Assembly: GCF_001969445.1 (NCBI RefSeq)
Contig: NZ_CP017297.1
Span: 4,030,001-4,094,000 of the forward strand
Reading direction: 5' to 3'
Length of the DNA: 64,000 nt
Origin: Brachybacterium sp. P6-10-X1
GTDB taxonomy: Bacteria > Actinomycetota > Actinomycetes > Actinomycetales > Dermabacteraceae
The notes beneath the pieces are model-generated. The model saw only the letters and a program-made list of their open reading frames with translations. It was not told where the DNA came from and did no database searches. The translations under genes and the position numbers were made by a program. Positions 15,593 to 19,900 of the stretch are shown piece after piece (within the stretch, counting starts at the first letter, position 1; every line of letters starts with the position of its first letter).

Positions 15593-17755
15593 CTATCCCA
15601 GCGTCACCCGGTGGACGAGCACCGTGAACTCCTCGTCGTGGCCGCGCTCGCGGGCGCGCAGGCGCCCGCCCTCGAGGGAGAGGGGCCGCACCTGCTTGAC
15701 GATCACGCCGCCGCGGCCGTCGACGATCCCGAGCGGCAGCTCGCCCTCGTGGGCGATCGCGTCCAGCAGGCGATCGGTCACCGACAGATCGGTCGCGCCC
15801 TCCTCCGCCGCCCGGATCCGGGCCACGGCCTCGGGGGCCGGGACGCGCAGCTCGGGGCCGTCGACGGTGACGAGGTCGGGGTCGACGGGCCCACCGGGCA
15901 GCGAGTGCGCGAGCTCGGGCCCGGCCGGGCGCCCGTCGGGCCCGACGGCCTGCGGGGAGAGCCCGGCCTGCCGGGCCACCTGGAGGGCGAAACCGGGATC
16001 GGAGAGGGTCACCGCGACCGTCGGGGCCAGGCGGTGCACTGCCAGGGCCGACGCTTCGGGGGCCACCTGCAGCAGGTCCAGCACCTCCGGTTCCGCGGTG
16101 AGCACGGTGGTGGCTCGCGAGACCTGCACCCGACCGTGGCGACGCTGCTCGTCGCGCAGCAGATAGGTCAGCGCCTGCGGGACGGGGGAGCGGGAGGCGT
16201 CCTCGAGCAGGACCAGCAGTGCCTCGGCGTCGCGCCCGGCCCCCAGCGCCCGGCGCACCGAGGTGGTGCTGAAGCGCAGCGTGAGGGCACCGCCGCGGGA
16301 GACCACCTCGGCCCAGTCCAGCAGCGGCAGCAGGCGCTCGGCCGGACGGCCGGGGACCACGGCCGTGAGGTCCGCATCCAGCAGCACCTCGTCGACCGGG
16401 ACCGGGGCCGCGGCCCGCAGCGCCCCCGCGAGCCGGGCGTCGGCCTCGGTGACGTCCTCGTCGAGGGCGAGCACGAGCTCCTGCCCGAGCACGGTCAGGG
16501 CTCCGCCGTCGAGCACCCCGAGCGCCTCGCCCTCGGTCAGCAGCGCCGCCGTCTCCTCCTCGATCACGTCGGCCGGGACCAGCGGGAAGGCCCAGGCCAG
16601 ACAGAGCCCCAGGGAATCGGCCGTGGCATGGACGCCCGGGCAGGTCCGCAGGGTGCGCAGCAGGCTTCCCCGGCGGGTGCGCACCCCGTCGCGCCGGGTC
16701 AGGTCCGACAGCAGGGCGCGGCCGGTGCCCGAGGAGTCCGGGGTGCCGACGACCGCGGCGAGGTGGTGCCCGTGGACCCAGGCGAGCACGAGCTCCGTCC
16801 ACCGCTGCTCGGGGGCCTGGACGCGGTGGGCGTCCCAGTCGCGCGTGGGATGCCATTCCTGGCCGTCGTGGCCGATCAGCCCGGCCTGCCAGGCCGACTG
16901 CAGCACGGTCGCGACGGTGAGCACGGGAGCTCCGGCACGATCGGCGAGGCGCCGCAGGTCCCGCTGGGGGATCCCGCCGCGACGCAGCACCCCGGGAGGG
17001 TCCTCGTCGAAGCCGCGGACCGTGCTCAGCAGACGCAGCGCCTCGAAGGCCTGCTCGACGGCCTGGGCGGACCGTGATCCGGCGATCCGCTCGGTGACCT
17101 CCGGCCCGTCCGGCACGGGGCGCCGGGCGGCATGGGAGCGGCGCACGCGTCCACCGCGCAGCGCCAGATGGATGCTGCGGGGGATGTGCAGCGTGCCGTC
17201 CTCACCGGTCACGACGATGCCGACCTCCCGCAGCTCCTTCGCGAGCCGCCCGTGGCCCTCGACGGTCGCGGGCCCCCAGGCCAGAGTCTCCAGAACGTCC
17301 GGCATCGACGCGCGGGCGGCGGCCACCCGGCGTTCGGCGACCTCTGCCGAGGGGTCGTCGGCCGAGGCGGGGGCGAGGCCGGCCGGGGTGCGCAGCCCCT
17401 CGCGCAGGGGCCGGATCAGGTGCAGCTCGTCCTCACCCCACACCAGGGCGAGAGTGGTCAGCCGTTCGAGGGCGGGGGAGATCGTCGCAGGGTCAGAGGA
17501 GACCGACTCGGCCAGGGCGGACGGCGCCGTGCCGTCCTCGAGCACGGCGAGGGCTTCGACGAGGTGGAGCTCCGGCAGCCGCAGCGCCCCGAGGGCGCGA
17601 CGGGCGGAGGTGGCGCCGGCGGCCCGGGCCGCGAGCGGACCGAGCCCCTTGGGAAGCGGCGAGGCGAGGTCCGGCCGGGCGACGAGCAGCGCCTCCAGGC
17701 GATCGTCGCCGAACCGTCGCAGGGAGTCCGCGAGGGACCGGATCACAGCGCTCAT
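15593..17755 (-). CDS. Helicase C-terminal domain (Helicase_C_3) protein
   Basis: A 720-residue protein. The C-terminal third carries the XPB/Ssl2-like Helicase_C_3 domain, with the diagnostic segment LLDADLTAVVPGRPAERLLPLL followed by LTLRFSTTSVRRAL. The N-terminal two thirds are helical and winged-helix-like, without a Walker A motif, so it is not a helicase by itself. Such proteins accompany XPB helicase in actinobacteria and may act with it in DNA repair; the XPB gene is 3.5 kb away on the same strand. The ATG at 17755 (MSAVIRSLADSL) is preferred; an ATG further up would run into the tRNA gene. Confidence 0.82.
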   Translation of the reverse strand: MSAVIRSLADSLRRFGDDRLEALLVARPDLASPLPKGLGPLAARAAGATSARRALGALRLPELHLVEALAVLEDGTAPSALAESVSSDPATISPALERLTTLALVWGEDELHLIRPLREGLRTPAGLAPASADDPSAEVAERRVAAARASMPDVLETLAWGPATVEGHGRLAKELREVGIVVTGEDGTLHIPRSIHLALRGGRVRRSHAARRPVPDGPEVTERIAGSRSAQAVEQAFEALRLLSTVRGFDEDPPGVLRRGGIPQRDLRRLADRAGAPVLTVATVLQSAWQAGLIGHDGQEWHPTRDWDAHRVQAPEQRWTELVLAWVHGHHLAAVVGTPDSSGTGRALLSDLTRRDGVRTRRGSLLRTLRTCPGVHATADSLGLCLAWAFPLVPADVIEEETAALLTEGEALGVLDGGALTVLGQELVLALDEDVTEADARLAGALRAAAPVPVDEVLLDADLTAVVPGRPAERLLPLLDWAEVVSRGGALTLRFSTTSVRRALGAGRDAEALLVLLEDASRSPVPQALTYLLRDEQRRHGRVQVSRATTVLTAEPEVLDLLQVAPEASALAVHRLAPTVAVTLSDPGFALQVARQAGLSPQAVGPDGRPAGPELAHSLPGGPVDPDLVTVDGPELRVPAPEAVARIRAAEEGATDLSVTDRLLDAIAHEGELPLGIVDGRGGVIVKQVRPLSLEGGRLRARERGHDEEFTVLVHRVTLG

Positions 17756-17801
17756 GATGATTCCAGCATAAAGTGACGATGCTGCCGGACACCACGGCGT
17801 C

Positions 17802-17875
17802 GCCCCCATAGCCCAATCGGCAGAGGCGGCCGACTTAAAATCGGCGCAGTGCGGGTTCGAGTCCCGCTGGGGGCA
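17802..17875 (+). tRNA. tRNA with UAA anticodon (Leu-like, short variable loop)
   Basis: 74 bases fold as a complete cloverleaf: a 7-bp acceptor stem GCCCCCA/TGGGGGC, a D arm with 3-bp stem GCC/GGC, a 5-bp anticodon stem GCCGA/TCGGC with loop CTTAAAA, and a T stem GCGGG/CCCGC with loop TTCGAGT. The anticodon is TAA (17836-17838), reading UUA leucine codons, and the discriminator base is A. CCA is not encoded. The variable region is only five bases (GCAGT), whereas normal bacterial leucine tRNAs have a long variable arm; the D arm does look like a leucine tRNA. Identity as tRNA-Leu therefore rests on the anticodon and D arm only. Confidence 0.85.
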
Positions 17876-17999
17876 CGGAAGAATCGTTGTGCACCCACGA
17901 CGGCCAGGCCCACGACATCAGGCAGGACGGGGCCCGGTGCCCCGCGCCTCCGGGCCGATCCCCGCGCCTCCGGGCCGATCGTCACGGATCCGGGCCACA

Positions 18000-18740
18000 A
18001 TGGAGGCCATGACCGAGACCTCCGCCGCCGATCAGCTCACCGCCCGCCTCGACGACGTGCTCTCCCGTCTCGATGCCGCAGCCGCCCGCGCCGGCCGGGG
18101 CGGCCGGGAGATCACGGTGCTGCTGGCCACCAAGACCCGCACGCCCCAGGAGATCGCCACCGTCATCGATCTGCTGCGCGAGCGGGGGCGACCGATCGTC
18201 GTGGGGGAGAACCGGGCCCAGGAGATCTCCAAGCACACCGACCCGCTGCTGGCGGACAACGGGGTGCCGCGGCACTTCATCGGGCGCCTGCAGACCAACA
18301 AAGCCCGCGACGTGGTCGCCTTCGCCGAGACGATCCACAGCGTGGACCGCGAGGACATCGCCGATGCGCTCGAGCGTCGGGCCGGGATGGCTGGCCTGAG
18401 GCGGGACGTGCTGGTGCAGGTCAACACCTCGGGGGAGGAGTCCAAGGGCGGGTTCGCCCCGGCCCTGGAGGCCGTCGGCCCGATCATCGAGCGGCTGCGG
18501 GCCGGCGAGGGCCTGCGGCCCGTCGGCCTGATGACGATCGGCGCCAACACGGACGACGCGGGTGCCGTGCGCGCTTCGCTGCGCACCCTGCGGCAGCTGC
18601 GCGACCAGGCGCGCGCCGAGCTCGACGTGCCGGAGCTGGAGCACCTGTCGATGGGGATGAGCGGGGACCTCGACATCGCCGTCGAGGAGGGGGCGACGAT
18701 CGTGCGCGTCGGCTCGGCGATCTTCGGCCCCCGGCCCTGA
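18000..18740 (+). CDS. YggS/PLPBP-family pyridoxal phosphate protein
   Basis: A 246-residue PLP homeostasis protein of the YggS/YBL036C group, with an alanine-racemase-like TIM barrel and no known catalytic activity. The PLP lysine is in the strand EITVLLATKTRTPQ. Other family motifs are VVGENRAQEISKH, HFIGRLQTNKARDV, VNTSGEESKGG, GLMTIG, LSMGMSGDLDIAVEEG and the terminal VRVGSAIFGPR. The ATG at 18000 is used; an in-frame ATG at 18009 is also possible but its GGAGG is only two bases away. In many actinobacteria this gene is in the division cluster, but here it stands after a tRNA. Confidence 0.9.
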   Translation: MEAMTETSAADQLTARLDDVLSRLDAAAARAGRGGREITVLLATKTRTPQEIATVIDLLRERGRPIVVGENRAQEISKHTDPLLADNGVPRHFIGRLQTNKARDVVAFAETIHSVDREDIADALERRAGMAGLRRDVLVQVNTSGEESKGGFAPALEAVGPIIERLRAGEGLRPVGLMTIGANTDDAGAVRASLRTLRQLRDQARAELDVPELEHLSMGMSGDLDIAVEEGATIVRVGSAIFGPRP

Positions 18741-18808: not shown

Positions 18809-19900
18809 TCAGCCGGGGCCGACGAGTGCCTGCGGCAGTCCGTACTCGTGCTCGAGCACCTCGCAGGCCGAGCCGACGGCGATCAGGTCCGTGCCCCGGG
18901 TGGAGAGCATGACCTCGACGTGGACCCAGGGCTCGGCCTGCAGGCTCTCCTCCAGCGCAGCGCGGATCGCGTCCATCGTGCGCTCGTGCTGGGCGTAGAC
19001 CGACCGCCCGCCGAGCACGACCCGGTCCACGTCGACCAGCCGCACCAGATCCACCACCACCGTCGCCAGCACCTGGGCGGCGTACTCCTCGTCGCCCGCC
19101 TCCAGCGCGGCCTGGTGCTCGGCCTGGGCGCAGCCTCGTCGACCGCAGGTGCACGGGACCCCGTCGATGCGCACCACGGTGTGGCCGGCCTCGCCGGCGT
19201 GGGAGTGGGCGCCGCGCACGATCATGCCGCCCAGGCACAGGGCCGCCCCGAGCCCGTCCTCGACGAGCACGAGCGCGGCGTCGTCCAGCAGTCCGGGCTG
19301 CGACCACGCCTCGCCCACCAGGGCGGCCCGCGAATCGTGGTCCAGCAGCACCGGCAGGGACAGCTCCTGCGCCAGGAGCCGACGCAGCGGTGCCCCGCGC
19401 CACGGGTCGGGCTGGGCGCTGCCGCGGTAGACGCCTTCGGACCAGTCCACCGGTCCCGGCATCCCGACCCCGACGCCCAGCAGCTCGCCGGGGCCGACCC
19501 GGGCCAGGTCGCGCGCCTGCTCGGCCAGGGTCGCGATCAGCTCGTCGACCGGTTGCAGCCGCCCGATCTCCAGGTCGCGCCGCTCCAGGATCTCGCCGGT
19601 GAGGTCGACCACCACGCCGTGGACGCGGGAACGGGTCAGGTGCAGTCCGATCGCGCGTCGCGAGGAGGGGACGATGCGGTAGAAGGTGGTCGGCTTGCCG
19701 GGGCCCGCGGCGACCGTGCCGATCTCGGTGATCAGCCCGCGATCCATCAGCCGGCCCAGGATCTTCGAGATCGCCTGCGGCGTGACCTGCAGGGCCTGTG
19801 CCAGTCCCGCCCTCGAGACGGGATCGCCCCGCCGGGCGACGGCGAGGACGGCGGCGTCATGGGCGCCCGCCACACGGTCCAGGGGAGTGCTCTCTCTCAC
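18809..19900 (-). CDS. ROK-family transcriptional repressor
   Basis: A 363-residue NagC/XylR-type regulator. The N-terminal winged helix (about 12-70) includes VSRAGLAQALQVTPQAISKILGRLMDRG-type helix-turn-helix sequence. The ROK domain follows, with an ATP/sugar-site GVGVGMPGPV segment, LDHDSRAAL, and the zinc motif CTCGRRGCAQ preceded by AGEAGHTVV. It should bind DNA and respond to a sugar or sugar phosphate. The GTG start at 19900 has a GGGAGG site upstream; no ATG lies in frame nearby. It is divergent from the MFS exporter gene at 20166, which is a plausible target. Confidence 0.87.
   Translation of the reverse strand: MRESTPLDRVAGAHDAAVLAVARRGDPVSRAGLAQALQVTPQAISKILGRLMDRGLITEIGTVAAGPGKPTTFYRIVPSSRRAIGLHLTRSRVHGVVVDLTGEILERRDLEIGRLQPVDELIATLAEQARDLARVGPGELLGVGVGMPGPVDWSEGVYRGSAQPDPWRGAPLRRLLAQELSLPVLLDHDSRAALVGEAWSQPGLLDDAALVLVEDGLGAALCLGGMIVRGAHSHAGEAGHTVVRIDGVPCTCGRRGCAQAEHQAALEAGDEEYAAQVLATVVVDLVRLVDVDRVVLGGRSVYAQHERTMDAIRAALEESLQAEPWVHVEVMLSTRGTDLIAVGSACEVLEHEYGLPQALVGPG

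Follow-up and report, generated by a model that had tools for sequence, protein, structure and literature searches.

The question raised by this locus of Brachybacterium sp. P6-10-X1 is which amino acid, and which role, belongs to a tRNA that carries a leucine anticodon on a body with a short variable region. tRNA-Leu is listed with tRNA-Ser and tRNA-Tyr among the long-armed tRNAs (PMC7609411, PMC9976931). The gene, on the forward strand at positions 17802 to 17875 of the window (the whole stretch of 64,000 nucleotides that was analysed), specifies a class I tRNA of 74 nt without an encoded CCA. ARAGORN identifies it as tRNA-Leu(taa) at 17802-17876, one base beyond the discriminator, and the Rfam model RF00005 matches 17802-17875 over its whole length (60.4 bits against a cut-off of 29, E 1.4e-10), which places it in the tRNA family; no other Rfam match in the window reaches the gathering threshold. 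The D arm (17811-17827) is of the leucine type, with a 3-bp stem GCC/GGC, unpaired C13 and A22, A14 A15, G18 G19, A20a and G21. The anticodon UAA (TAA in the DNA, 17836-17838) reads UUA and presumably also UUG through wobble. The variable region (17846-17850) is GCAGU (GCAGT in the DNA) and ends in U48, the partner of A15; with five bases it falls short of the ten or more that define a class II tRNA-Leu. The discriminator is A73 (position 17875). The perfect cloverleaf, UAA anticodon and five-base variable region described in the earlier note are thus borne out by ARAGORN, RF00005 and reading of the sequence.

The tRNA gene is preceded by a divergent gene (15596-17755, reverse strand) encoding a protein with a helicase conserved C-terminal domain (PF13625, E 2.3e-27) and followed by a gene for a protein with an alanine racemase N-terminal domain (18009-18740, forward strand; PF01168, E 1e-16), which we take to be YggS-like. 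A TANNNT element (TAAAGT, 17769-17774, forward strand), found at the same place in 15 of 18 upstream regions from the same genus (counted by eye), is a possible −10 promoter element of the tRNA gene. It overlaps a TATGCT sequence of the other strand (17765-17770) that lies before the divergent gene. Most of the 18 regions present both motifs on their respective strands at the place corresponding to 17765-17774, at a varying distance from the tRNA, and this segment is possibly a shared two-way promoter. A further ARAGORN call in the window, a tRNA-Ser(CGA) at 19767-19847 on the reverse strand, is a probable false positive, being located inside a long ORF and without Rfam match at the cut-off.

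The genome, a single contig of 4,385,603 bases that is 100% complete, contains 49 tRNA loci above the RF00005 cut-off, and the short-armed tRNA is the only one of them with the anticodon UAA. The second, class II tRNA-Leu(UAA) that the earlier note proposed to look for is absent from these 49 loci. All other leucine tRNAs of the genome are long-armed according to ARAGORN (CAA, 85 nt; CAG, 86; GAG, 87; UAG, 83; lengths as printed, including one or two CCA bases where present), and their four variable regions comprise 13-17 bases versus five in tRNA-Leu(UAA). A single gene for leucyl-tRNA synthetase (LeuRS) was detected over the family cut-off.

In Escherichia coli, the determinants of LeuRS are described as A73, A15-U48, G18G19 and A20a, and the long arm as dispensable for this enzyme (PMC9976931). 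All of these determinants, established for the E. coli and not for an actinobacterial LeuRS, are present in the tRNA studied here. We scored four features, namely A14 A15, the leucine-type D arm (A20a-G21-A22, unpaired 13-22 and 3-bp stem), U48 and A73, and found all four in each of 75 distinct mature short leucine tRNAs (57 with anticodon UAA, 14 with CAA, three with CAG and one with UAG), in 15 of 17 long leucine tRNAs and in none of 70 non-leucine tRNAs. Among these 75, 35 were found only by a pattern that itself requires AGAGGC, a part of the D arm; the other 40, found without it, also have the full feature set (40/40), the BLAST and model searches behind them having been seeded with members of this family. 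The D arm and discriminator A are leucine-like, as pointed out in the earlier note.

Bacterial class II tRNAs-Leu(UAA), including that encoded by bldA of Streptomyces, have the same anticodon and decoding slot and mostly the same leucine-type D arm, A15-U48 and A73, but they have a long variable region. We take the bldA product to be a class II tRNA, so that the gene described here, encoding a class I tRNA, does not correspond to bldA in this respect. The human mitochondrial tRNA-Leu(UUR) is reported to be charged without a long arm (PMC9976931). The metazoan mitochondrial tRNAs-Leu(UUR), for which A73 and A14 are given as determinants (PMC9976931), are likewise UUR leucine tRNAs without the long arm; however, they are organellar, fold weakly and have their own LeuRS, whereas the Brachybacterium tRNA has strong stems and would share one LeuRS with long-armed leucine tRNAs. 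In a Met-like tRNA described in PMC8450103, a short variable region likewise accompanies a leucine anticodon; this tRNA is presented there as a silenced pseudogene or as possibly specially regulated, and the tRNA studied here differs from it in possessing the leucine determinants and in its wide conservation.

Taken together, we consider it highly probable (roughly 0.93) that a functional leucine tRNA without the long variable arm is encoded here, that it decodes UUA (presumably also UUG by wobble) as the only dedicated UUA reader of the cell, and that it would be recognized by the single LeuRS through A73 and a set of D-loop and hinge nucleotides. This set would comprise A15-U48, G18 G19, A20a, the 3-bp D stem and the 13-22 mismatch. 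As the same putative recognition elements occur in the long-armed leucine tRNAs of the genome, we propose that the arm may be dispensable here, and its absence should keep seryl-tRNA synthetase away. We infer that the gene is expressed and its product charged by LeuRS. The function would thus be ordinary and only the form unusual, with charging most likely by the normal LeuRS via the discriminator and the D-loop/hinge contacts.

The comparison with other actinobacteria that the earlier note called for strengthens this reading. BLAST detected the full-length short UAA form in 25 of 29 genomes, its own included, among them 17 of the 18 other genomes of the genus. Across the alignment of 25 relatives, which includes one member with the anticodon CAA, 99.8% of the cells are paired (76.9% in shuffles) and changes affect both sides at 14 of 20 pairs, so that a chance cloverleaf is ruled out. 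The whole leucine-type D arm, with its three stem pairs, is invariant in this alignment; alternative D stems (GTC/GAC, TCC/GGA and CTC/GAG) were found with a covariance model and are paired throughout. The possibility of a decayed or silent gene, which would leave UUA effectively unassigned and would agree with the near absence of this codon from the sampled genes, is at odds with the intact stems, the compensatory changes, the presence of the full-length UAA form in nearly all of the genus and the 179 matches that a pattern for short UAA or CAA tRNAs gives among 198 genomes of the order. We regard it as very improbable and rejected it; the conservation makes the non-expressed pseudogene considered in the earlier note unlikely.

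To what UUA corresponds in protein sequences was examined in 20 related carriers, all with a short UAA tRNA, using stretches of 11-20 kb and excluding identical codons. At 251 UUA sites, 63.0% of 1242 aligned pairs associate UUA with another leucine codon, compared with 64.7% for UUG, 65.5% for CUA and 60.3% for CUG in the same carriers; the ORFs are uncurated and wrong frames depress all of these percentages. UUA pairs with phenylalanine in 4.3% and with isoleucine in 6.3% of the cases, and UUU pairs with phenylalanine in 51.6%. Counted by site, leucine forms the majority at 162 of the 251 UUA sites (64.5%), phenylalanine at 17 and isoleucine at 15, the corresponding leucine values being 62.9% for UUG and 61.5% for CUA. 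In these carriers UUA thus aligns with leucine about as often as codons whose leucine meaning is beyond dispute, and the other amino-acid identity suggested in the earlier note is not supported.

Homologues were examined for three of the eight UUA-containing ORFs sampled in the host. The one informative site was compared in 18 homologues, of which 17 belong to the genus and one to the order (some are perhaps paralogues): 14 have leucine, three arginine and one methionine. The two other sites were of no help: one gave Leu 7, Val 7 and Ile 3 (n = 17), the other Leu 9 and Arg 1 (n = 10), with almost every codon there ending in TA, and in our judgement both stretches resemble non-coding sequence ahead of the true start. 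We also noted a protein of 452 amino acids (L200:7232-8587, reverse strand) without Pfam hit at 1e-5, which has UUA at a conserved leucine position and of which the host genome encodes two more, nearly identical copies (97-98%).

A reassignment of UUA, with the tRNA carrying phenylalanine, isoleucine, methionine or arginine, could be suspected from the class I shape, from the acceptor stem identical to that of the tRNA-Arg(UCU) of the same genome and from A35 A36, which also occur in tRNA-Phe. This is contradicted for the related carriers by the codon alignment, and the set of leucine determinants is complete; A20 and C35, the arginine determinants, are both absent from the tRNA. We accordingly give reassignment almost no weight. 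The earlier note had also considered a non-canonical leucine tRNA, and it is this assignment that agrees with the unique UAA anticodon, the recurrence of the form across the phylum and the presence of every leucine determinant tested.

UUA is, as the earlier note expected, very rare in the host: the window and 400 kb of the host genome yielded 319 ORFs, chosen by high third-position GC with low-GC genes thereby excluded, in which UUA occurs eight times in 129,396 codons (0.06 per thousand, against 2.35 for UUG) and is the rarest leucine codon. By analogy with Streptomyces, whose development is described as gated by the UUA tRNA (PMC4255298), such rarity could mean that the supply of this tRNA gates the translation of a few UUA-containing genes, and one of the eight ORFs indeed encodes a GAF-ANTAR protein, a type of regulator. 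The other UUA-containing ORFs are of mixed kinds, though, and at least two of the eight UUA codons probably lie upstream of the true start. Moreover, a GC content of 72% alone predicts that UUA is rare, and in carriers of less extreme GC this codon accounts for 0.19% of codons (uncurated ORFs). Outside Streptomycineae, according to PMC4255298, UUA shows no bias towards gene starts and is sometimes present in conserved growth-associated genes. A bldA-like regulatory role is for these reasons an unlikely reading, though a better one than reassignment or decay, and we retain that of an ordinary, short-armed reader of UUA.

The short form is present in the genus, in the order and in other classes of the Actinomycetota, the one phylum covered by our distribution searches. 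With strict patterns, which miss variants and for which a long form was defined by a variable region of 12 or more bases, the short UAA form was detected in 75 and the long UAA form in 172 of 396 genomes of the phylum, both in none and neither in 149, as established by comparing the two tables of matches by eye. This mutual exclusion has a hypergeometric P of 3.9e-22, computed without regard to shared ancestry; it is also observed inside a single family (f28), with 15 short forms, five long forms and three genomes with neither. The reversed short- and long-form patterns, used as a control, matched zero and one genome, respectively. A covariance model was run on 40 genomes, i.e., ten of the 19 genomes of the order missed by the short UAA or CAA pattern, four genomes of the order with a match and 26 other genomes of the phylum matching neither form. 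The best match was a short leucine tRNA in 19 of the 40; the 21 other best matches comprise 11 read as other tRNAs and ten left unread, and a relaxed long-form pattern gave no match in these 21 genomes. Carriers in which the sequence was read include Nocardia farcinica and Arthrobacter sp. StoSoilB13, whose records are filed as plasmids, a Curtobacterium plasmid and an Actinomycetales MAG.

The short form is not limited to the anticodon UAA. Short UAA and CAA tRNAs occur together in some genomes of four families (f3, f9, f10 and f89). In the family f4, six genomes have a short CAA form that we read, with no UAA tRNA identified there, and the short UAA and CAA forms coexist in one more genome of this family, G588. 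Three genomes of the group g260 combine a short CAA tRNA with a long UAA tRNA. A search of 149 genomes of the order for short forms with CUN anticodons gave matches in seven, every one from the family f91; five of these were read (L178-L182), four with CAG and one with UAG. Two of the g260 genomes also encode, adjoining the long-armed tRNA-Leu(UAA), a tRNA of 93 nt that ARAGORN identifies as tRNA-Ile(UAU) (L175:1611-1703 and L177:1258-1350); its long variable region is able to form a stem, and it may represent the converse case, an isoleucine tRNA resembling class II. In the genome G425, the long-armed tRNA-Leu(UAA) (L175:1486-1570) appears to carry G73 as its discriminator, compared with A73 in its relatives L176 and L177.

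How the short form originated can be approached from its closest relatives. Among 34 tRNAs of the same genome that were compared, the nearest is not a leucine tRNA but tRNA-Arg(UCU), which is also the next match in a BLAST search with tRNA-Leu(UAA). A class I tRNA such as this one could have been recruited to leucine identity, instead of a class II leucine tRNA having lost its arm; the mean identity to class I leucine tRNAs, 44.2 of 62 positions for tRNA-Arg(UCU) and 41.9 for class II tRNA-Leu(UAA), points in the same direction. However, the D arm is laid out as in class II leucine tRNAs, and a tree of 133 tRNAs (78 short leucine tRNAs, 17 long ones and 38 other tRNAs of the genome) had a best split support of 0.43. 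Recruitment is thus a tentative scenario to which we give somewhat less than even odds.

Short leucine tRNAs are also encoded by phages. A short tRNA-Leu(UAA) is present in Rhodococcus phage Trina, beside a long CAA tRNA, in cyanophage P-RSM6 (L203:593-668) and in Myxococcus phage Mx1 (L206:594-667). These three tRNAs, of about 74 nt and annotated as tRNA-Leu by the depositors, resemble the Brachybacterium tRNA in their anticodon and D arm; they differ in being phage-borne and in their acceptor stems, and two of them come from phages of hosts outside the Actinomycetota. Streptomyces phages WRightOn and Abafar encode a short tRNA-Leu(UAG). In addition, bases 1-47 of the Mycobacterium abscessus prophage record prophiGD02-2 (L208:1-47) match bases 28-74 of the tRNA gene, and a second matching place was counted in this record; the match suggests an attachment site, left by integration into this tRNA gene.

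A bacterial tRNA-Leu with a short arm was not described in any paper found by a literature search that covered few subscription journals and tRNA databases, where it may be in print; within the literature searched, the absence of the long arm in much of a phylum was thus not found, although short genes have already been annotated as tRNA-Leu by depositors, as in phage Trina. The broader view that we favour by a narrow margin is that the long arm is optional in bacterial leucine tRNAs and that, in Actinomycetota, short forms repeatedly replaced long ones in more than one decoding box (UAA or CAA alone, the two together and, in one family, CAG/UAG), phages being possible carriers and one LeuRS charging both architectures. 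In a major bacterial phylum, UUA would often be read by a short leucine tRNA, a natural counterpart of the E. coli mutants that showed in the test tube that LeuRS has no need of the arm. Assigning isotypes by arm length may misjudge short-armed leucine tRNA genes. The switching of arm length between lineages becomes testable, as does the question of whether the short forms borne by phages aid the translation of leucine codons independently of the supply of the host.
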